A stretch of DNA of 64,000 nucleotides, from contig PLCA01000006.1 in NCBI GenBank assembly GCA_003134685.1, positions 1 to 64,000 of the forward strand, written 5' to 3'. Position numbers and translations under genes: made by a program. The notes beneath the pieces were generated by a model, which was given only the letters and a program-made list of their open reading frames with translations, made no database searches and had not been told where the DNA came from. Positions 3,095-64,000 of this stretch are shown here, piece after piece. This DNA comes from Gemmatimonadota bacterium (GTDB lineage: Bacteria; Gemmatimonadota; Gemmatimonadetes; Gemmatimonadales; Gemmatimonadaceae). The first letter of the stretch is position 1. Each line of letters begins with the position of its first letter.

Positions 3095-4393
3095 ATGGCT
3101 ACATTCGGGAACGGGCGCCGCGTCGCGATAGTTGCGGGCGTGCGGACGCCATTTGCAAAAGCTGGAACCGCGTTCAAGACAATTTCCGCGATCGACCTCG
3201 GCAAGTTGTGCGTAGCGGAATTGTTGCAGCGCACGAATCTGGACGGGAAAGAGGTGCAGGCGTTGGTGTTCGGCACAGTGGTTCCATCAGTGGTCGAGCC
3301 GAACATAGCCCGTGAAGTCTCGCTGCTGCCGCTTTTGCCGAAGGGCGTCCAGGCCTACACCGTGAGCAGAGCGTGCGCGTCGGCGAATCAGGCGATCACC
3401 GACGCCGCTGACCAGATCGCTCTCGGTCACCTCGATGTCGCGATCGCAGGCGGTTCGGAATCTCTGTCCAACATTCCGATTCTTCACTCGCAAAGGTTCG
3501 CCGAGACGCTCCTTCTCGCGTCGAAAGCGAAATCGCTGCCGGCGCGGCTCCGGATTCTCGCGCGCCTGCGTCCGAAAGATTTCATTCCCATCACGCCGGC
3601 GATCGCCGAACCTACGACCGGCGAGACGATGGGACAGTCGGCGGAAAAGATGGCCAAGCTCAACGCGATTGCGCGCGAAGAGCAGGACCACTTCGCGCTG
3701 CGCTCACACCGGCTCGCGTCCGCCGGCACCGCCGATGGTAGATTGACGGCTGAGATCATGCCGGTCTATGTGCCGCCCAAGTTCGAAAGCGTGCTGACGT
3801 CGGACAACGGCATTCGCGAAGACACGAGCTACGAGCAGCTGGCGGCGCTCAAGCCGGTTTTCGACAGAAAGTACGGCAGCGTGACCGCGGGCAATTCGTC
3901 GCCACTCACCGATGGCGGCGCCTGCGTTCTGCTCATGAGCGAGGAGAAGGCGAAAGCGCTCGGCTATGCTCCGCTCGGGATAATCAAGTCGTACGCGTAT
4001 GCGGCGCTCGATCCGGGAGAGCAGCTACTCCAGGCGCCGGTGCTGGCCGCACCGGTCGCGCTCAAACGCGCAGGCCTCTCGTTGAAGGACATCGACCTGG
4101 TGGAGATGCACGAAGCGTTCGCCGCGCAGGTGTTGTCGAATCTCAAGGGATTCGAATCGAAGTGGTGGGCCGAGAGAGCGGGTTTCTCACAGCCGGTCGG
4201 CGAGGTAGACAGAGCGAAGCTAAACGTCATGGGCGGCTCGATCGCCATTGGCCATCCATTCGGAGCGACCGGTGCGCGAATCACGACGACGCTTCTGAAC
4301 GAGCTGCAGCGGCGCGGCGGGCAGTTTGGGCTGATGACCGTGTGCACGGCGGGCGGTATGGGCTTCGCGATGGTGGTCGAGAGGACACAATGA
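3095..4393 (+). CDS. fadI: Acetyl-CoA C-acyltransferase (FadI-type thiolase)
   Basis: A 432-residue thiolase that cleaves 3-ketoacyl-CoA in beta-oxidation. The nucleophilic Cys94 is in SRACASANQA, the base His in GGSIAIGHPFGATGARI and the second Cys in CTAGGMG. The length and the extended N-terminal half match FadI rather than the shorter FadA. Its stop codon overlaps the fadJ start by ATGA (4390-4393), so the two halves of the beta-oxidation complex are translationally coupled. This is the first gene of a six-gene chain running to 10673. Confidence 0.93.
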   Translation: MATFGNGRRVAIVAGVRTPFAKAGTAFKTISAIDLGKLCVAELLQRTNLDGKEVQALVFGTVVPSVVEPNIAREVSLLPLLPKGVQAYTVSRACASANQAITDAADQIALGHLDVAIAGGSESLSNIPILHSQRFAETLLLASKAKSLPARLRILARLRPKDFIPITPAIAEPTTGETMGQSAEKMAKLNAIAREEQDHFALRSHRLASAGTADGRLTAEIMPVYVPPKFESVLTSDNGIREDTSYEQLAALKPVFDRKYGSVTAGNSSPLTDGGACVLLMSEEKAKALGYAPLGIIKSYAYAALDPGEQLLQAPVLAAPVALKRAGLSLKDIDLVEMHEAFAAQVLSNLKGFESKWWAERAGFSQPVGEVDRAKLNVMGGSIAIGHPFGATGARITTTLLNELQRRGGQFGLMTVCTAGGMGFAMVVERTQ

Positions 4394-6657
4394 GCCCGAC
4401 TTCGGAAGTTACGATCGGCGGGCTGGTGGGCACGCGCTGGAAACCGGCGCTCTCGGTCGAGGTCACGGACGGCATTGCGATCATAACGTTCGATCTCCCG
4501 AACGAGTCGGTCAACAAGCTGAACCGCGCGGTCAAGGACGAGTTCGTCGCGCTTGTGAGCAGGCTGGAGCGCGACACTACCGTTACGGCCGCGGTGTTCG
4601 TGAGCGGCAAGCCCGACGTGTGGATTGCGGGCGCCGACATCGAGGAGTTTCTGCAGCTGAAGACCGCGACGGACGCCGAGCGGCTGAGCAGGGACGGTCA
4701 GATGCTTCTCGATTCCATTGAGCACCTTCGAGTGCCGATAGTCGCCGCGATACATGGCGCGTGTCTGGGCGGAGGACTCGAGACTGCGCTCGCCTGCCAT
4801 TATCGCATTGCCACCGATCATGCGAAGACCATCCTCGGTCTTCCCGAAGTTCAGCTCGGCCTGATTCCCGGCGCCGGCGGGACGCAACGGCTGCCGCGCA
4901 GAATCGGACTCACGAATGCGCTGGACATGATTCTCACCGGCAAGCAGGTCCGCGCCAAGAAAGCGCTCGACCTCGGGCTGATCGATGAGCTCGTGCACCC
5001 GTCCATACTCCGCAGCGTCGCGATCCAGCGGGCGCGCGAGGTCGCGGAGGGAAGAAAGAAGAGCGAGCGGCACACCGGAGGAATAAAGGGCCTGCTCATC
5101 GATGGGAATCCGGCGGGCCGCGCGATCGTGCTCAGAAAGGCTCGCGAGCAGACGCTCGCCAAATCGCGCGGACACTATCCCGCGTTGATCGCCGCGATCG
5201 ATGTCATCGCCGCCGGTTACGCCAAGGGCGTTGCACACGGTTATCGCGAGGAGTCTCGCCGTTTCGGCGAGATGGCGATGACGGACGTGTCGCGGCAGTT
5301 GATATTCCTCTTCTTCGCGACGAACGAACTGAAGAAGGATCCCGGCGTCGATCCCTCACAGTATCCGGACCTGCCCGTCTCCGATTTCGACCCGCTGCCG
5401 ATCAACAAGATCGCGATAATCGGCGCCGGATTCATGGGAGCTGGGATCGCATCGATCGCGGTGCAGCACGGGAGTCTGGTCCGCCTCAAGGACGCGGATC
5501 ACACGCGCGTCGCGAAGGGATACGCGGCGGTTCGCGATATTCTCAAGGAGCGGCTCACCAGAAAGCAGATCACAAAAATCCAGTACAGCGATTACATGGC
5601 GCTGCTGGGCGGGACCGTCGATTACTCCGGTTTCGGAAACGTCGATCTCGTGATCGAGGCCGTGTTCGAGGATCTGGCGATCAAGCATCAGGTTTTGCGC
5701 GAGACGGAGGCGGCGATCCACCCTAGTGCGATCTTCGCCACTAATACGTCTACCATTCCGATTTCCTTGATCGCGCAGGCATCGAGCCGTCCGGAGCGCG
5801 TGCTCGGAATGCACTTCTTCTCTCCCGTGCACAAGATGCCGCTGCTCGAGGTGATCACGACCGCGGATACGCATCCGCAGGTGACCGCGACAGCCGTGGC
5901 CTATGGGAAGAAGCTTGGAAAAACCGTCATCGTCGTGAACGACGGGCCGGGATTCTACGCCAATCGGATTCTCGCGCCCTACATCAACGAGGCGGCCATC
6001 CTGCTCGATCAAGGCGTCGCGGTAGACATCATCGACAAGGCACTGGTGGATTTTGGGTTTCCTGTGGGGCCGATCACGCTCATCGATGAAGTCGGGCTCG
6101 ATGTCGCGACCAAGGCGGGAAAGATCATGGCCGAAGCGTATCCGGACCGAATGCAGCCGGCGAAATCGATTCAGGCCGTCGTTGCGGCGGGGCGTTACGG
6201 GAGAAAGTCGAAGAAGGGCTTCTTCACCTATGACAAGGAAGGGAAGAAAGGCGAGGTCGATCCCTCTGTCTATGCTCTGTTCCTGGCGCCGGGTAGCATT
6301 CCGATCGTGAAACCGATCGCGCCCTCTGCCGGGACCGAGGCGCCGGCGCGACCGGAGATGCCAGCCGCCCAGATTCAGCAGCGGACGGTTCTGGCGATGC
6401 TCAACGAAGCCGCGCGCTGCTTGAGCGACGGGATCGTTCGCTCGTCACGCGATGGCGATGTCGGAGCGGTATTCGGAATCGGCTTCCCTCCGTTCCGCGG
6501 CGGACCATTCCGCTATATGGATTCACTCGGCATTCAGATCGTGGTGCAGCGTCTCGAGGATCTCAACGCGCGCTTTCCGGGACGGTTCGAGCCAGCGGAG
6601 CTGCTGCTCGAGATGGCTCGTCGGAGGCAGGTCTTCTATCCCGACGAGCGCTCGTGA
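4390..6657 (+). CDS. fadJ: Fatty acid oxidation complex alpha subunit (enoyl-CoA hydratase / 3-hydroxyacyl-CoA dehydrogenase)
   Basis: A longer open frame begins at 4162, but ATG 4390 overlaps the fadI stop and gives 755 residues, a normal FadJ/FadB length. The N-terminal crotonase domain shows the oxyanion-hole segment HGACLGGGLE and GLPEVQLGLIPGAGGTQRLP; the middle NAD-binding domain starts with GAGFMGAGIA and carries the catalytic HFFSPVHKMPLLEVI; two C-terminal HACD helical domains follow, ending with FPPFRGGPFRY. With FadI it carries out hydration, oxidation and thiolysis of acyl-CoAs. The start of the next gene (GTGA, 6654) again overlaps its stop. Confidence 0.95.
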   Translation: MSPTSEVTIGGLVGTRWKPALSVEVTDGIAIITFDLPNESVNKLNRAVKDEFVALVSRLERDTTVTAAVFVSGKPDVWIAGADIEEFLQLKTATDAERLSRDGQMLLDSIEHLRVPIVAAIHGACLGGGLETALACHYRIATDHAKTILGLPEVQLGLIPGAGGTQRLPRRIGLTNALDMILTGKQVRAKKALDLGLIDELVHPSILRSVAIQRAREVAEGRKKSERHTGGIKGLLIDGNPAGRAIVLRKAREQTLAKSRGHYPALIAAIDVIAAGYAKGVAHGYREESRRFGEMAMTDVSRQLIFLFFATNELKKDPGVDPSQYPDLPVSDFDPLPINKIAIIGAGFMGAGIASIAVQHGSLVRLKDADHTRVAKGYAAVRDILKERLTRKQITKIQYSDYMALLGGTVDYSGFGNVDLVIEAVFEDLAIKHQVLRETEAAIHPSAIFATNTSTIPISLIAQASSRPERVLGMHFFSPVHKMPLLEVITTADTHPQVTATAVAYGKKLGKTVIVVNDGPGFYANRILAPYINEAAILLDQGVAVDIIDKALVDFGFPVGPITLIDEVGLDVATKAGKIMAEAYPDRMQPAKSIQAVVAAGRYGRKSKKGFFTYDKEGKKGEVDPSVYALFLAPGSIPIVKPIAPSAGTEAPARPEMPAAQIQQRTVLAMLNEAARCLSDGIVRSSRDGDVGAVFGIGFPPFRGGPFRYMDSLGIQIVVQRLEDLNARFPGRFEPAELLLEMARRRQVFYPDERS

Positions 6658-8384
6658 GGGGAGGAGTGCCGGCCACATTGCGTTCGTCGTCTCTCGCGGT
6701 CGCGGCAGTGCTCGGGTTTACCGCGTGCGCGCCGACCACCCGCAAACCGTTGACTCCCGCTGACTATCCTCGCACTCGTCCCGAGCTGACACGGTATAGC
6801 GAGACCTCCCACTACGAGGATCTCAGGAAGTTTCTCGACTCGCTGCGCGCTCTGCGGGCCCCGCTGGTGTTCGGATCAATCGGCAAGACCAACGAAGGGC
6901 GCGACATCCCTTACGTTATCGCGTCACGCCCGCTTGTCTCCACGCCATCCGAGGCGAAACGACTGGGCCGGCCGATTGTGTACGTTCAGGGCAACATCCA
7001 TGCGGGCGAAGTGGAGGGCAAGGACGCGCTGCTGGCACTGCTTCGCGATCTGTCTTTCTCCAGTAAGCCGAACGTTCTCGATTCCATCGTTCTGATCGCC
7101 GTCCCGATCTACAACGCCGACGGCAACGAGCGCTTCGCCGCGCAATCGGTGAACCGCATCGAGCAGAATGGGCCCGAGCTGGTGGGCATCCGACCCAATG
7201 CGCAGAACCTAGATCTCAACCGCGACTATGTGAAGGCTGAAGCTCCCGAGACGCGCGCATCGCTGGCGATGTTCAATACCTGGGATCCGGACGTGTTCGT
7301 GGATCTCCACACCACCGATGGGAGCTTTCACGGGTACGCGCTAACCTATTCTCCCTCGCTGAGCCCGGCGGCGGTATTCGGAGGATTCTACGCGCGGGAC
7401 TCGCTCCTTCCCGTTCTGCGCGAGCGAATGCGGACGCGTCACGGCTTCGAGGTGTTCGACTACGGAAACTTCATCTCCGACGAGCCGCCCGCCCGGGCGG
7501 ACACCAGCGTGCGCGAAGGCTGGGCTACATACGATGCGCGTCCGCGCTTCGGCACCAACTACTATGGGATACGCGGCCGCATTGGAATCCTGAGCGAAGC
7601 CTACTCGCACGACTCGCTCGCCCGACGGATCGCTTCCACCTACGCCTTTGTCAGTGAGACCCTTTCGCTCGTCGCGGAAAAGGCAGTTGCGATCAGATCG
7701 CTGAGCGCGCGTGCGGACAGCCAGCCCCTCGCGTGGGGTCGATCTCCCGATTCCCTGCAAATCATAGCCATTCGCTCCGAGCTCATCGCGACGCCGCAGA
7801 TGATGGATGTCATCAAGGAAGATCTGGAGAAGACCGGTGATTCCTCGCTGACCCAACCCGGCGTACCGCGTGGCTCGCGGCGCACCGGGCGGTTCAGGAC
7901 GATTCGCATGGCAGTCTACGACCGGTTTACGTCGACGCTCGACCGTACACCCCCCGCGGCTTATGTCATCGTGCCGGAGGATACCGCGGTCGTGACGCTG
8001 CTTCGGCTCCACGGGATTCGCGTCGATCGCTCCGACTCCGCCTGGACCGCGCGTGGAGAAGCCTTTCTCATCGATTCGATAATCACCGCCCCGCGGACTT
8101 TTCAGGGACACCACGAAGTCCGTCTCAAAGGGCGATGGGAGCGGGGATTGCAGACCCTTCCTCCTAAGTCGTTCATCGTGTCCACGGCGCAGCCGCGCGG
8201 CGCGCTCGTCGTCTACCTGCTCGAGCCGGAGAGCGACGACGGCTTCACCACCTGGAATATGTTCGACGGCGATCTCAAGAAAGGCGGCCGGTTTCCGGTG
8301 ACGAGGATCTTCGATCTATCTCGACACGGCCGTGCCGCCAATCGCCGGACTTCCGCGTCTACCACGCAGCCACTCCCGAACTGA
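6654..8384 (+). CDS. M14-family zinc carboxypeptidase, secreted lipoprotein
   Basis: A 576-residue protein starting at GTG 6654, overlapping the fadJ stop by four bases. A signal sequence ends in a lipobox with Cys25 (GFTAC). The zinc ligands are in NIHAGEVEGKD (HxxE) and in the downstream DLHTTDGSFHGY; the likely catalytic Glu is in RIGILSEAYSH. Such M14 proteins remove C-terminal residues from peptides or act on muropeptides outside the cytoplasmic membrane. Its place between fadJ and proline dehydrogenase is odd unless the operon handles peptide-derived amino acids. A later GTG at 6666 is a possible alternative start. Confidence 0.88.
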   Translation: MRGGVPATLRSSSLAVAAVLGFTACAPTTRKPLTPADYPRTRPELTRYSETSHYEDLRKFLDSLRALRAPLVFGSIGKTNEGRDIPYVIASRPLVSTPSEAKRLGRPIVYVQGNIHAGEVEGKDALLALLRDLSFSSKPNVLDSIVLIAVPIYNADGNERFAAQSVNRIEQNGPELVGIRPNAQNLDLNRDYVKAEAPETRASLAMFNTWDPDVFVDLHTTDGSFHGYALTYSPSLSPAAVFGGFYARDSLLPVLRERMRTRHGFEVFDYGNFISDEPPARADTSVREGWATYDARPRFGTNYYGIRGRIGILSEAYSHDSLARRIASTYAFVSETLSLVAEKAVAIRSLSARADSQPLAWGRSPDSLQIIAIRSELIATPQMMDVIKEDLEKTGDSSLTQPGVPRGSRRTGRFRTIRMAVYDRFTSTLDRTPPAAYVIVPEDTAVVTLLRLHGIRVDRSDSAWTARGEAFLIDSIITAPRTFQGHHEVRLKGRWERGLQTLPPKSFIVSTAQPRGALVVYLLEPESDDGFTTWNMFDGDLKKGGRFPVTRIFDLSRHGRAANRRTSASTTQPLPN

Positions 8385-9324: not shown

Positions 9325-9711
9325 ATGGGCAGATTCCTTCCCCCCGATCCATCGAAAGGCGATCCGAATACGATCGGCGGATACATGGCCGTCCATGACC
9401 GTCCGGCAGCATTCGAGGGAAGCGACGGTGCTTCGTACAGCGTGGAGATCGTGACCGACACGAGCGGAGAAAAGGAACGGCCATTCGCCGCATATCTCCT
9501 GTTCGTGCGGTGGGGCCACGGCGATCCCGTCGCCAGCGGACACCTGGAGACGGAATTTCTCGCTTTCGCGACAACCGAGGACGACGCGCGCAAAATGGTA
9601 GGCGCAATGTTGCTCAATGAAGTGAAGCTAGGCCTGGATCAACTGATCACGGAGAACCGCGCGAAGCTGCTGCCCTGGTGGGATTCGATGCGCCAGGAGG
9701 GTACCAGTTGA
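9325..9711 (+). CDS. Small hypothetical protein, 128 aa
   Basis: ATG 9325 lies two bases after the proline dehydrogenase stop, and the gene ends in a TTGA overlap with rsgA. A longer frame from 9220 runs inside the upstream gene and is unlikely. The protein is soluble and mixed alpha/beta in appearance, with VEIVTDTSGEKERPF, RWGHGDPVASGHLETEF and a C-terminal amphipathic helix ending near LLPWWDS. I recognise no domain. Being locked between two essential-looking genes by overlaps argues that it is real; its function is unknown. Confidence 0.75.
   Translation: MGRFLPPDPSKGDPNTIGGYMAVHDRPAAFEGSDGASYSVEIVTDTSGEKERPFAAYLLFVRWGHGDPVASGHLETEFLAFATTEDDARKMVGAMLLNEVKLGLDQLITENRAKLLPWWDSMRQEGTS
9695..9701 (+). 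promoter_or_regulatory. Shine-Dalgarno AGGAGGG deciding a TTG start for rsgA
   Basis: AGGAGGG ends 6 bases before TTG 9708 and lies inside the end of the preceding gene. No comparable site precedes the in-frame GTG at 9678, so TTG 9708 is the likely initiator. Confidence 0.65.
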
Positions 9712-10673
9712 CGCGCAAAGAGGGCGTCGTGCTCCAGGGGACAGGCGGGATATGGCATGTCCGCGCCGACTCGGGGGAGACGCACGAAGCCTCGCTTCGC
9801 GGAAGGCTCAAGCAGGAGCGTAAGCAGGACAGAAAACTCGCCGTCGGTGATCGTGTGATTCTCGAGATAGACGAGCGAGGTGAGCACTGGGCGATCGCGG
9901 AGATTCTCCCCCGCCATTCGAAGCTCGCTCGGCGCGAACCAGGGGAAGGGCAGGGTGAGCGCATTGTTGCCGCCAACGTCGATCAGGTCGTCGTCGTCTT
10001 CTCGGCGGCGAAGCCTGAGCCGCACCGCAGAATGCTCGACCGGTTTCTGGTGATCGCGGAGGGGAATTCACTTCAGTCGCGGATCGTCATCAACAAGATC
10101 GAGCTGGTGAACAGGGAAGAGGCCGAGCGCGCGTTCTCCGACTATGCGGCGGCCGGCTATCCCGTGCACTTCACCAGCGTCAAGCAGCGGGTCGGATTGG
10201 ACGAGCTCCACGCCGCGCTGGCTGGGAAGACGTCGGTGCTCACCGGCCCCTCGGGAGTCGGCAAGTCCTCACTGATGAACGCAATGTACCCGGGGCTTGA
10301 TCTTCGCGTCGGCGAGATCAGCGAGTCGGTGGGCAAGGGCAGGCACACGACTGTCGGCGCGTTGCTGCATCCGTTGCCAGACGCTGGCTACGTTGTGGAT
10401 ACCGCCGGTCTGCGCGAAGTCGGAATGTGGGGCCTCGCGTCCGAGCATCTCGACGAATGCTTTCGCGAGTTTCGTCCGCATATCGCGGAGTGCAAGTTCG
10501 GGGACTGCACTCACCGGGTCGAGCCCGGTTGCGGGGTGCGGACCGCGGTGGCCGCGGGCTCGATCAGCGCCGAGCGCTACGACAGCTACCTTCGGTTGCG
10601 CGAGGAGATTGAGGAGACAGAAAAAAAGTGGGCGCCGTACTCCGCTGCATCCAAGGCGAAAAAGCGGCGCTAA
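9708..10673 (+). CDS. rsgA: Ribosome small-subunit-dependent GTPase A
   Basis: From TTG 9708 the protein has 321 residues. RsgA is a late 30S-assembly GTPase that checks the decoding site. It shows the diagnostic circular permutation: an N-terminal OB fold (about 5-80), then G4 NKIE (129-132) before G1 GPSGVGKSS (180-188), G2 Thr215 in KGRHTT and G3 DTAG (231-234). The C-terminal zinc knuckle is C262, C267, H269 and C275 in CKFGDCTHRVEPGC. Last gene of the overlapping chain from fadI; element A follows directly after its stop. Confidence 0.95.
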   Translation: MTRKEGVVLQGTGGIWHVRADSGETHEASLRGRLKQERKQDRKLAVGDRVILEIDERGEHWAIAEILPRHSKLARREPGEGQGERIVAANVDQVVVVFSAAKPEPHRRMLDRFLVIAEGNSLQSRIVINKIELVNREEAERAFSDYAAAGYPVHFTSVKQRVGLDELHAALAGKTSVLTGPSGVGKSSLMNAMYPGLDLRVGEISESVGKGRHTTVGALLHPLPDAGYVVDTAGLREVGMWGLASEHLDECFREFRPHIAECKFGDCTHRVEPGCGVRTAVAAGSISAERYDSYLRLREEIEETEKKWAPYSAASKAKKRR

Positions 10674-10677
10674 ATGA

Positions 10678-10916
10678 CTGCAAAAGAACGGGGTGGGAGG
10701 CGTCAGAGGCACAGATGCCAGTTTTCAGGTCACTACGCCCGGATTTTTCTACCGCTGATCAAGGCACAAGCAACTGCCTGTACACCGAAGGCCACAGAGG
10801 CAAGTCCGGGCGTCGTGACCTGATACCTGGCAACTACGCTACTGACGCCTCCCACCCCGTTCTTTGCAGTTTGCAGTTTGAGGCTACTGACGCCTCCCAC
10901 CCCGTTCTTTGCAGTT
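10678..10916. repeat. Inverted-repeat element A with duplicated tail
   Basis: Two long imperfect inverted arms, 10678-10742 and 10805-10870, enclose a 62-base middle (10743-10804). The outer 30 or so bases pair almost perfectly (GGGGTGGGAGGCGTCAG against CTGACGCCTCCCACCCC). The middle contains ACAAGCAACTGC and CCACAGAGGCAAGTCCGGGCGT, both found again in element B. A 34-base segment of the right arm (10838-10871) is repeated exactly at 10883-10916. The element fills the gap between the converging rsgA and osmC-like genes. It codes for nothing evident and resembles no IS I know. Confidence 0.85.
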
Positions 10917-10929
10917 CTCAGTTGTACTT

Positions 10930-11370
10930 CTACTCCGCCACAATCTCTACCGTCCAGGCAACCGAGATATCGCTCCTCAGAGAATCTCGGACGGAACAGT
11001 ACTTTGTCGCCGCCAGCTCGATCGCGCGCAACGCCTGTTCCTTCTCGATTCCCTTTCCCTTGATGTGGAAGTTCAGCGTGATGTACTTGTATCGGCGCGG
11101 AGTCGTATCGACGCGTTCGCCGACGACGTCGATCTCGAGCGACTCCACTGGAGTGCGCCGCTTCGCCAGAATTTCGACGACGTCCACTGACACGCACGAC
11201 GCGAGCGCGCTGAGCAAAGCCTCCGGCGGACTCTGCCCTGTCTTTCCATGACCATCGATGACCGCCGTCGGCGCATTCGCACGTCCTGCTTCGAAGCGCT
11301 GCTCGCCTGCCCACCGAACGTGAACGCGTGACGGCGGTTTCGTGGCCGGCGGCGCGGCCGGGGCTGTCAC
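10930..11370 (-). CDS. OsmC/Ohr-family peroxiredoxin
   Basis: From GTG 11370, which overlaps the upstream rhodanese stop (GTGA), the protein has 146 residues, normal for the family. OsmC proteins reduce organic hydroperoxides with a pair of cysteines: here Cys59 in [11 protein letters not shown] and Cys125 in AATKYCSV. The segment [15 protein letters not shown] is the family hallmark helix. A longer frame to 11415 exists but would lie wholly inside the rhodanese gene. Coupling to a sulfurtransferase suggests a thiol or persulfide stress role, which is inference. Confidence 0.9.
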
Positions 11371-12275
11371 TTCTCGGGTCCTTTCTCGATCGGAGCGCGA
11401 ACCGCGTTCCCCCACTCCGTCCAGCTGCCGTCATAGTTTCTCACACGGTCGTAGCCGAGGAGGTAGGTGAGCACGAACCAGGTGTGGGACGATCGCTCGC
11501 CGATCCGGCAGTACGCCACAATGTCGTCGCCTTTCTTCAGACCTTTTTCCTGCTCGTAGATGGCGCGCAGAGAGGTCGCATCCTTGAAGCTTCCATCCGG
11601 ATTCGCGGCGCGCGCCCACGGAATGCTGCGCGCACCTTTGATGTGCCCGCCTCGCAGCGTTCCTTCCTGTGGGTAGTCGGGCATGTGCGTGCGCTGGCCC
11701 GTGTATTCCTCGGGTGAGCGCACGTCTATCAGCGGCTTGCCACTGGCCGAATGCTCGCGCACCTGCTGAAAGAAGGCCCTGATTTTTTCGTCCGATCGCT
11801 TGGGTGCCTTGTAGCTGGTCTTTGCCAGCTGCGGAACCTCGGTGTTGAAGGGACGGCCCTCCTGCTCCCACTTGATTCGTCCGCCGTCCAGCAGCTTCGC
11901 GTTGGTGAACCCGAATAGCTGGAACACCCAGAAGGCGTACGCGGCCCACCAGTTGTTTTTGTCGCCGTAAAACACGACGGTCGTATGCTCGTCGATTCCC
12001 TTTTCGCGTAAAAGCTTCTCGAATTGCTCCGAAGAGACATAGTCGCGAAGCACCGGATCATTGAGATCCTGATGCCAGTCCACTTTCTGCGCCCCCGGGA
12101 TGTGTCCGGTATCGTAAAGCAGAACGTCTTCGTCGCTCTCGATGATTCTGACGCTCGGGTCGTCGAGATGCTCCGTAAGCCAGTTCGTGCTCACGAGAAC
12201 TTCAGGGTGCACGTAACCCTTGCCGGCGATGCCGGGATCGACGGCCGATGCATTGCTTGTGATTGTCGCCCCCAT
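11367..12275 (-). CDS. Thiosulfate/3-mercaptopyruvate sulfurtransferase (two rhodanese domains)
   Basis: A 302-residue tandem rhodanese. The N-terminal inactive domain (about 20-140) includes [11 protein letters not shown]; the C-terminal catalytic domain (about 165-300) has [11 protein letters not shown] and the active loop [10 protein letters not shown], where the Cys carries the persulfide. The CxxGxR loop form is typical of thiosulfate sulfurtransferases. AGGAG lies 8 bases before ATG 12275. It heads a two-gene unit with the OsmC-like gene. Confidence 0.92.
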
Positions 12276-38852: not shown

Positions 38853-39041
38853 GACTGAACGGGAGGGAGGCGTCAGAGGGCATAGATGCCAGTTGTTAGT
38901 TCACTACGCCCTGACTTATCTCGATAGCGTCATGATACAAGCAACTGCTTGTGCCCTTAACGCCACAGAGGCAAGTCCGGGCGTCGTGAACTGAATAACT
39001 GGAACCTACGCTACTGATGCCTCCCGCCAGTTCAGTTGCAG
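38853..39041. repeat. Inverted-repeat element B
   Basis: Arms 38853-38915 and 38975-39041 are imperfect inverted copies, with the outer GGGAGGCGTCAG-like part matched by CTGATGCCTCCC. The 59-base middle holds a small perfect hairpin, ACAAGCA-AC-TGCTTGT, and CGCCACAGAGGCAAGTCCGG, the latter almost identical to element A. Left-arm GTCAGAGGGCATAGATGCCAG corresponds to the same place in A and C. It lies between the alpha/beta hydrolase and the helicase genes. Confidence 0.85.
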
Positions 39042-39075
39042 TTGCCCTTTGCCACCCTGGGTATATTACACGAAG

Positions 39076-55425: not shown

Positions 55426-56739
55426 TTACGCCGATGCGCTGGCGGCGAGCGCGGGAGCGCCCTGAACTCCGCTGGTCCGCGAGAGGGAGTGATCGAGATC
55501 CACCCCCTGCCGCGCCGCAGCGTACTTCAGACAATTCTGAATGAGCTCTTCATAACCGATCCCTGCCGCTCGCGCGGCCTTCGGCAAACACGAATTGTCC
55601 GCTGGATCGGGAAGAATTCCGGGCAGCGGATTCACTTCGAGAACGTTCGGAACTCCGGAAGCATCGAGACGAACATCGATTCTCGCCCAGTCTCTGCAGC
55701 CGAGCACACGGAAGGCGTCGAGCGTTACTCGCTCAATAGACGCCTGAAGCTCCCGCGTGATACGCGCCGGACACTGGAAAATATCGAGCGGACTCTCGGG
55801 ACGATCCCAGACGAATTTTGCATCGAAGCTGTAAATCGGGAGAGCGCCCTTGGGCAGCGTCTCGAAATTCATTCCGACGATGGGCAGCACCGTCGCGTCG
55901 GTGCCGTTGCCGAGAACCGCGCACGTGAATTCCTTCCCCGGCAGATACTCCTCGATGAGAACGGGCTGCTTGTAGCTCTCGAGGAGGAACTCGGTCTGCC
56001 TGAAGAGGTGGTTGAGGTCAAAGCAGAGATTGCTGTCGGTGATTCCCTTCGACGACCCTTCATGGAGCGGCTTGACGAAGAGCGGAAGGCTTAGTTCGCC
56101 AGCGGCGGCTTTGAAATCTTCGAGCTTCTCGACGACCGCGAACCGCGGAGTCGGGATGCCGTAGAAGGTCAGCGTCTCCTTCGTTCTCGCCTTGTCGAGG
56201 CAGAGCGAGAGAGTGAAGGGATCGCTTCCGGAGTAGGGAATTCCGAAAAACTCACAGATCGCCGGAACGTGGGCTTCGCGGTTTACCCCGTGAATTCCCT
56301 CGGCGATGTTGAAGACGATGTCGGGTCTGACCTGGCGGAGTCTCTCCGGGAAATCGTCTTTCGCCTCGAGGCGGACGACTTTTCCAAGGCGAGCGAGAGC
56401 GGATTCCACGGCGGCAATCGTGGCGGGGCTGTCCCACTCGGCGAACTCGTCGCGGCTGACTAGCTCCGGAATGGAGCGATGAACGCTTTTACTAGGAGGC
56501 TCTTCATCGAGAATGGAGCGATGAACGCTTTTACTAGGAGGCTCTTCATCGGGAATGGAGCGATGAACGCTTTTACTAGGAGGCTCTTCATCGAGAATGG
56601 AGCGATGAACGCTTTTACTAGGAGGCTCTTCATCGGGGCGGAGAAGCTCCCCGTCTTCCTGACGGCCGCCCTCTGATGCTGGGCTGGTGAGCTCTGTTGG
56701 CTCGGGCTTTTGATTGTAGGCGAGTCCGATAAGAGTCAT
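55426..56739 (-). CDS. ATP-grasp ligase, D-Ala-D-Ala ligase-like, with repeated N-terminal linker (first of pair)
   Basis: ATG 56739 with AGGGTG upstream gives 437 residues. After a unique N-terminus (MTLIGLAYNQKPEP) the protein has four copies of a 14-residue unit, DEEPPSKSVHRSI plus L or P in turn, and then the ligase: IVFNIAEGIHGVNREAH, GIPYSGSDPFTLSLCLDK, KPLHEGSSKGI, EYLPGKEFTCAVLGNG and VLEVNPLPGILPDP. The last block is closer to true Ddl than that of its partner. The repeat linker is probably disordered. It heads the kamA operon, with its own promoter behind the thyX terminator. Confidence 0.85.
   Translation of the reverse strand: MTLIGLAYNQKPEPTELTSPASEGGRQEDGELLRPDEEPPSKSVHRSILDEEPPSKSVHRSIPDEEPPSKSVHRSILDEEPPSKSVHRSIPELVSRDEFAEWDSPATIAAVESALARLGKVVRLEAKDDFPERLRQVRPDIVFNIAEGIHGVNREAHVPAICEFFGIPYSGSDPFTLSLCLDKARTKETLTFYGIPTPRFAVVEKLEDFKAAAGELSLPLFVKPLHEGSSKGITDSNLCFDLNHLFRQTEFLLESYKQPVLIEEYLPGKEFTCAVLGNGTDATVLPIVGMNFETLPKGALPIYSFDAKFVWDRPESPLDIFQCPARITRELQASIERVTLDAFRVLGCRDWARIDVRLDASGVPNVLEVNPLPGILPDPADNSCLPKAARAAGIGYEELIQNCLKYAAARQGVDLDHSLSRTSGVQGAPALAASASA
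56469..56636 (-). repeat. Four tandem 42-bp coding repeats
   Basis: Units 56469-56510, 56511-56552, 56553-56594 and 56595-56636 differ only at the last base or two, in an alternating pattern (Leu, Pro, Leu, Pro), which suggests duplication of an 84-bp pair. They encode DEEPPSKSVHRSI(L/P) in the first ligase. The near identity at the DNA level points to recent expansion. Confidence 0.95.
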
Positions 56740-63705: not shown

Positions 63706-64000
63706 CTGCAACTGAACGGGATCCGACAACGGCGAACTGAACGGGATCCGAGATGTCAGAGGCATAGATCTCAGTACGTAGTCACTGCGCTCCGACCGTC
63801 CTGAACGCGCCTCCTATTACAACAACCGACGGCTTTACCATAACGCCACCAGATACGTCTCAGCGCAGTTACTAAAACCTGGTATCTACGCTTCTCAGAT
63901 CTCGGATCACGTTCAGTTTGCAGTTTGCAGTTCGCAGTTCTCAGATATCGGATCCCGTTCAGTTCGCAGTTTGCAGTTCTCGGATTCGGATCCCGTTCAG
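63706..64000. repeat. Inverted-repeat element C with tandem tail, cut by window end
   Basis: Arms 63735-63795 and 63863-63918 are imperfect inverted copies (AACTGAACGGGATCCGAGAT against ATCTCGGATCACGTTCAGTT). The middle shares AACGCCAC and neighbouring bases with element B, and the left arm has GTCAGAGGCATAGATCTCAG at the place of GTCAGAGGGCATAGATGCCAG in B. To the right, a segment of about 40 bases ending CGGATCCCGTTCAG is repeated about three times with TTTGCAGTTTGCAG spacers up to the window end. On the left, CTGAACGGGATCCGA occurs twice. It occupies the region upstream of the thiolase gene. Confidence 0.8.

Follow-up and report, generated by a model that had tools for sequence, protein, structure and literature searches.

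What kind of sequence occupies the gap between two convergent genes in this Gemmatimonadota genome? In the 64,000-nucleotide stretch of DNA analysed here (the window), the stop codons of two convergent ORFs lie 4 and 13 nt from a palindromic element, A, which an earlier note, made from the sequence alone, had described as the first of three related non-coding repeats. The data set out below indicate that A is probably MITE-like and non-autonomous, derived by deletion from an intergenic S23 (23S_rRNA_IVP) element. An inverted-repeat search gave arms of 64 nt that are 86% complementary and separated by a middle of 55 nt, in good agreement with the nearly perfect pairing over about 65 bases noted before. 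The extent first assigned to A, 10678-10916, was right for the core, which runs to 10869, and too long at its end, where it took in a second copy of the right end because this end is tandemly duplicated. Coordinates are collected in Table 1. Elsewhere in the window, a 42-bp unit is repeated four times at 56469-56635, with copies 98% alike.

Table 1. Positions in the window of element A, its parts and neighbours, and of elements B and C.
Feature	Position	Strand	Remarks
Upstream convergent ORF	9678..10673	+	Product presumably resembles GTPase RsgA
Element A, core	10678..10869	+	~192 bp, near-perfect hairpin; + corresponds to the sense direction of the parental S23 gene, orientation from the S23-bearing relative L058/L063
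Left inverted arm of A	10683..10746	+	Inverted-repeat search
Remnant of S23 gene 3' end in A	10786..10818	+	Compared with the intact S23 gene of L068
Right inverted arm of A	10802..10865	+	Inverted-repeat search
Tandem duplication, right end of A	10838..10923	+	45-bp unit, 1.9 copies, 95%
Heptamer TTTGCAG, end region of A	10863..10880	+	2.6 copies
Downstream convergent ORF	10930..11415	-	161 aa; product presumably resembles OsmC
Element B	38857..39043	+	Same subfamily as A, 81% identity
Remnant of S23 gene 3' end in B	38957..38989	+	
Element C	63713..63960	+	Second subfamily; arms resemble those of L067, which bears S23
Heptamer CAGTTTG, right end of C	63914..63939	+	3.7 copies

The kinship of the three elements, as first proposed, stood up clearly against shuffled sequence. 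The local alignment of A and B scored 187, against a maximum of 27 in 500 shuffles, and C aligned with A at 48 and with B at 47 (shuffled maxima of 28 and 25). A and B belong to one repeat family, and C represents a second, related subfamily.

Both subfamilies are abundant. A search of its own genome with A, as the earlier note had suggested, returned 73 matches that merge into 37 places, sorted by eye into 27 full copies, 2 diverged copies, 2 halves, 2 places of subfamily C and 4 that are the left and right halves of two S23-bearing elements. C returned 87 matches, 16 of them strong full copies. A-type matches were present in 10 of the 19 genomes of the genus, the source genome counted in. 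None of the 48 placed copies lay inside a gene called by the simple gene caller made for this analysis, and convergent gaps held 19 of the 47 copies with both neighbours, against about 14 of 136 other gaps (element-bearing gaps were subtracted from this background by hand). The hairpins occupy dozens of intergenic sites, mostly just 3' of genes. Group IIC introns insert next to intrinsic terminators; inspected by eye, an apparent intrinsic terminator lay beside the element at L049, L052 and L076 only. A is short, has terminal inverted repeats and contains no intact gene, its family is multicopy and dispersed, and longer elements with the same ends (L063, L068), together with a gene remnant within A, point to internal deletion. 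Dispersed, intergenic and palindromic copies that are present or absent at matching congener sites bear out the earlier suggestion of a MITE-like element.

In reading the copies we found an ORF flanked by half-elements at two loci, L058 and L054. At both loci the ORF is 23S_rRNA_IVP (PF05635; E 1e-30 and 2e-26), and the same ORF matches NCBIfam TIGR02436, four helix bundle protein. The S23 profile also matches PDB entries 2gsc (E 6.5e-37), which is the S23 protein XCC0516 of Xanthomonas campestris, and 2rld. The S23 protein of Xanthomonas is a pentamer of four-helix bundles (PMC4990558). S23 is presumably kin to the Avd protein of diversity-generating retroelements. Seven S23 genes are present in this genome (eight matches, one gene being split), and all seven are flanked by inverted repeats of 45-78 nt that are 79-92% complementary. 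A-type arms enclose the S23 ORF at L058/L063 and L054/L068 and C-like arms enclose it at L067, while the genes at L064, L065, L066 and L069 have arms of other sequence. No rRNA was found at the S23 loci of this genome (L031, L063-L069). The split gene (L069/L070, G000:C5:601122-601465) is interrupted by a short frame-breaking stretch, and an SRP RNA lies near one of the S23 loci.

In the A-type S23 elements the right arm overlaps the end of the S23 gene, and both A (RRPQRQVRAS*) and B (LTPQRQVRAS*) retain a remnant of this end, which reads RTPPRQVRAS* and RTPRKQVPAS* in the intact genes. The description of A as non-coding is therefore accurate for its present state but passes over a short former coding segment. 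This segment was ungapped in 60 of 67 aligned copies from this genome and its congeners; the TGA stop was kept in 55 of those 60, and the reading frame was open to the stop in 19. In addition, a truncated intermediate (L054:9509-9613) comprises about 30 C-terminal S23 codons and the right arm only. An S23/IVP gene between complementary arms is found in the parental elements alone; A consists of the arms and the remnant. The shared arms, the remnant and the intermediate lead us to read A as an internally deleted S23 element, and its copy number, its presence and absence in congeners, the covariation of its stem and the recurrence of the arrangement elsewhere, both in further phyla and within a 23S rRNA insertion, lend this descent further support. 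The remnant belongs to a conserved stem, however, and pairing rather than ancestry alone may account for its conservation.

The consensus of the 67 copies folds into an 84-pair hairpin of about -153 kcal/mol. Paired cells made up 85.3% of the total, against a shuffled mean of 83.0 and maximum of 83.7, and doubly compensated cells numbered 199, against a mean of 99.8 and a maximum of 130; when the partner was slid along, pairing fell to 32-40%. Compensatory change in the stem, well above that in shuffles, is in keeping with the earlier proposal of a structured RNA. It fits an RNA or a DNA hairpin, as covariation would also be expected of a DNA hairpin maintained through template switching. G-U cells outnumbered A-C cells (310 vs 208), in the same direction as in an earlier set of 27 copies (43 and 20), and the columns were nearly equal (57 vs 53), so that strand-specific selection on RNA is suggested by cells and not by columns, and the comparison does not single out RNA. 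Ten copies scored near-equally in both orientations, and no Rfam family matched in the window.

To compare sites between congeners, the joined flanks of 22 sites were searched in the genus; 20 stretches were fetched, and 17 of them, at 10 sites, were aligned. Among the alignments listed, no element stands at the site of A in G008 and G009, and in G002 only a remnant of its end is left; the first two supply the empty sites in relatives that the earlier note had proposed to look for. At the L061 site, the element of G002 has lost its middle at a 5-base repeat and retains its left part and extreme end. A shared element (L153 vs L111) has one extra 30-bp end unit in G002, showing that end units change copy number between congeners, and one matching site (L037:3186-3580 / L075:1400-1800) holds subfamily C here and subfamily A in G009. 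We found no target duplication: over 66 of the 67 copies, the mean shared length was 2.44, as it was in shuffles (2.44). Nor was a clean empty site at very close range found among the congener sites aligned, and for these two reasons the exact moving unit is blurred. Searches of the genome, which is 98% complete, covered two enzyme families, RVT_1 and Y1_Tnp. No reverse transcriptase matched RVT_1 at E <= 1e-5, which makes retro-copying by a resident reverse transcriptase unlikely, though one from elsewhere could still have acted.

The layout of an S23 gene between inverted arms extends beyond this genome. PF05635 was found in 45 of 59 genomes of the family, with at most 14 matches in each. 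Inverted-repeat scores of at least 40 occurred at 28 of 36 S23 loci from this genome and the family, a set in which two loci with short flanks were kept and the split gene was counted once, as compared to 1 of 960 windows matched in geometry. In named genomes 80 S23 loci were found, of which 4 were dropped for flanks below 120 nt and 76 were scored; these loci and those of the family may partly share genomes. Scores of at least 40 were reached at 23 of 29 loci in named Gemmatimonadota (controls, 0 of 107) and at 14 of 47 in other phyla (0 of 185), where a score of 30 was reached at 26 of 47 loci and 5 of 185 controls. A strong flanking repeat was absent at 8 of the 36 loci of this genome and the family and at 33 of the 47 in other phyla. 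In a weak test, a short 23S motif was absent at all 76 named-genome loci. Inverted arms around non-ribosomal S23 genes are thus not particular to this genome, yet they are not universal. As well as the missing target duplication and the loci without strong arms, it counts against S23 descent that G008 has no S23 match despite 19 A-type matches and that the S23 arm tested in G036 was not amplified.

Tandem heptamers form many of these arms. Of 227 S23 flanks, 43 contained repeats with a period of 7 or its multiples; the corresponding numbers were 5 of 407 for random windows and 1 of 202 for intergenic windows (1/50 and 0/152 in the two sets). The excess held both in Gemmatimonadota (27/132 flanks vs 2/230 controls) and elsewhere (16/95 vs 3/177), and was weaker for period 8 (8/132 and 7/95, respectively). 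Counted by locus, period 7 was seen at 29 of 116 S23 loci, and on both sides at 14 (flanks below 100 nt were skipped in this test). The heptamer sequence varies between S23 loci. In G055 and in a Bacteroidales genome, the S23 gene is flanked by arms of tandem 7-mers in opposite orientation, and these 7-mers recur at further sites in copies that have no ORF. A Geothrix genome gave 33 matches to its S23 arm, some of them inverted pairs in the match list. Hairpins with the arms of S23 elements but without an S23 gene are present in G055 and the Bacteroidales genome and, judged by match pattern alone, in the Geothrix genome. At L301 and L305 of the Bacteroidales genome, heptamer arrays are one-sided, with no facing arm within the stretch read; at L308, a G055 heptamer hairpin sits between two apparent tRNA genes, as judged by eye. 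Heptamers are short in the window itself (Table 1), and a lag test around the A and C copies of this genome found an enriched end-repeat period of 29-32, not 7, a further point against S23 descent.

Plasmids gave a similar picture. S23 relatives occurred in 14 plasmid records, 13 of them cyanobacterial and two of them near-identical copies from one strain. Period 7 or 14 ran alongside the S23 gene in 12 of the 14, and an inverted-repeat score of at least 40 was reached in 11 of 14, with a right flank that, unlike in the other two sets, took in the last 30 nt of the ORF. Of 3,872 random windows drawn from two of these plasmids, 82 contained a heptamer array; inverted pairs without an ORF that lie nearby carry the same heptamer as the S23 element. 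Some cyanobacterial plasmid S23 genes (L319, L326, L330) lie between cas genes in apparent operons (cas6-cas4 twice, cas10-cmr3), and one on a Nostoc plasmid (L320) lies on the opposite strand between two ribonucleotide reductase subunit genes. In Azospirillum lipoferum 4B (NC_016586.1, L334), the only record that is not cyanobacterial, the S23 gene at 5001-5390 is located inside an LSU rRNA match at 3792-6990, and the arms of this 23S rRNA insertion are heptamer-like (period 14). The Azospirillum case joins the classical rRNA insertion to the dispersed S23 elements.

To our knowledge, S23 elements have so far been described mainly from inside bacterial rRNA genes, and we know of no function assigned to the S23 protein of rRNA insertions. 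The elements described here resemble the intervening sequences of 23S rRNA in Coxiella and Leptospira in that an S23/IVP gene lies between complementary arms that form a long stem and in their scattered distribution; unlike these, they sit between protein genes, in many copies and with ORF-less derivatives. REP/RAYT and ERIC palindromes are likewise extragenic, and ERIC, at 127 bp, is similar in size to A, but this genome encodes no RAYT and A is related to an S23 gene. Like the MITEs of insertion sequences, A is short, non-autonomous and intergenic, with terminal inverted repeats and a longer, internally deleted parent; unlike them, this parent encodes S23/IVP instead of a transposase, and there is no target duplication. 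The heptanucleotide repeats of Xanthomonas, cyanobacteria and Beggiatoaceae (GGGAATC, STRR, TAACTGA) share 7-bp tandem units and an intergenic position near ORF ends, whereas in A heptamers form only a short stretch at the end. Insertions of 23S rRNA with an S23 ORF are possibly mobile; the RNA of the Coxiella insertion is excised by RNase III, and older proposals cited in the same paper hold that such insertions are remnants of transposition or mobile elements and that their ORF codes for a component needed for mobility (PMC4990558). IVP domains also occur in rRNA insertions of CPR bacteria (PMC11270868). The GGGAATC heptamers of Xanthomonas often occur as inverted pairs that are themselves convergent; 70 inverted pairs were counted, on average 28 nt from the nearer ORF (PMC4692102). 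No transfer mechanism was evident for TAACTGA heptamers, for which a repeat-binding protein was suggested as the mobile part (PMC4679880), and satellites derived from heptamers have been mentioned (PMC6749651). The parts of the heptanucleotide-repeat papers that were searched contain no link to S23. Among open-licence papers, subscription papers and preprints being outside the scope, none was found that links S23 to dispersed repeats or heptamers.

Several other origins for A were weighed against descent from an S23 element. The hairpins might have come first, as palindromes generated by the host through slippage and template switching, with S23 genes as parasites that settle in their loops, just as in the loops of rRNA helices. 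This order of events would agree with the common occurrence of heptamer arrays between bacterial genes (PMC4692102, PMC4679880), with the location of the classical insertion in a helix of 23S rRNA, with the large excess of ORF-less copies over those with S23, and with the differences in end-unit number between congeners. We nevertheless think it unlikely, given that A and B carry the 3' end of an S23 gene, that a truncated intermediate exists, and that for both subfamilies, A and C, this genome also contains a counterpart with an S23 gene. Alternatively, the arms could be served by some DNA transposase, as in an ordinary MITE, with S23 as a passenger gene. Terminal inverted repeats, high copy number and intergenic insertion are all compatible with such a history, which we consider distinctly unlikely in light of the lack of target duplication and because S23 has unrelated arms in several phyla, so that a passenger would need many different transposases. 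Moreover, in the 10-kb stretches read, which were not annotated gene by gene, no transposase was seen between matched arms; those arms were all parts of hairpins, half copies or S23 elements.

That the host keeps A as a structured regulatory RNA, or as an RNA-level terminator between convergent genes, appears very improbable to us. The covariation and stability of the stem, the excess of G-U over A-C cells and the enrichment in convergent gaps would all be expected of such an RNA, but no Rfam family was matched, the G-U and A-C columns are nearly equal in number, several sites are not common to congeners, and the position is accounted for equally by insertion bias or purifying selection. A REP-like element served by a RAYT transposase can practically be set aside: although A is palindromic and extragenic, Y1_Tnp (PF01797) had no match in the genome, in a search whose control detected the family in 5 of 14 known genomes, and A, at ~190 bp, is far larger than REPs of 20-40 bp (PMC3733652). 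Thus, the RAYT part of the earlier note's enzyme proposal is not supported. The protein to which the element is related, S23, is encoded in the same genome by the S23-bearing members.

If A descends from an S23 element, its history probably ran as follows. The full unit is an S23 gene between long inverted arms, ~550-640 bp in all, with outer arm ends made of tandem short units, which measure 7 bp in many lineages and about 30-45 bp in this genome. When most of the gene was lost, what remained was a ~190-bp hairpin with both arms and, on the right, the final codons; such ORF-less hairpins then spread to dozens of intergenic sites and decayed by internal deletion. S23, a pentameric helical bundle by homology, would recognise the hairpin as RNA or single-stranded DNA and enable ORF-less copies to multiply in trans, while cutting and copying would fall to host enzymes. 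A role for S23 in spreading A-type hairpins in trans is a plausible hypothesis. More broadly, and only tentatively, S23/IVP genes may constitute a class of mobile hairpin elements that is widespread, has not been described before and has neither a transposase nor a reverse transcriptase. In it, S23 would recognise arms made of short tandem units, as a rule heptamers, or help to build them, and would act in trans on ORF-less hairpins. The rRNA insertions would then represent a single niche among those of the class, and its arms or remnants would account for many of the unexplained bacterial heptanucleotide repeats.

The tie between S23 and heptamer repeats is, to us, the most interesting part of these data. 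Heptamers form inverted arms around S23 genes far above chance, which suggests a possible origin for the heptamer repeats of bacteria, and dispersed S23 elements with ORF-less offspring make the proposed role of the S23 ORF in mobility testable. If this is true, annotators could recognise such repeats for what they are, and a way of spreading that does not depend on a transposase would be open to experiment.
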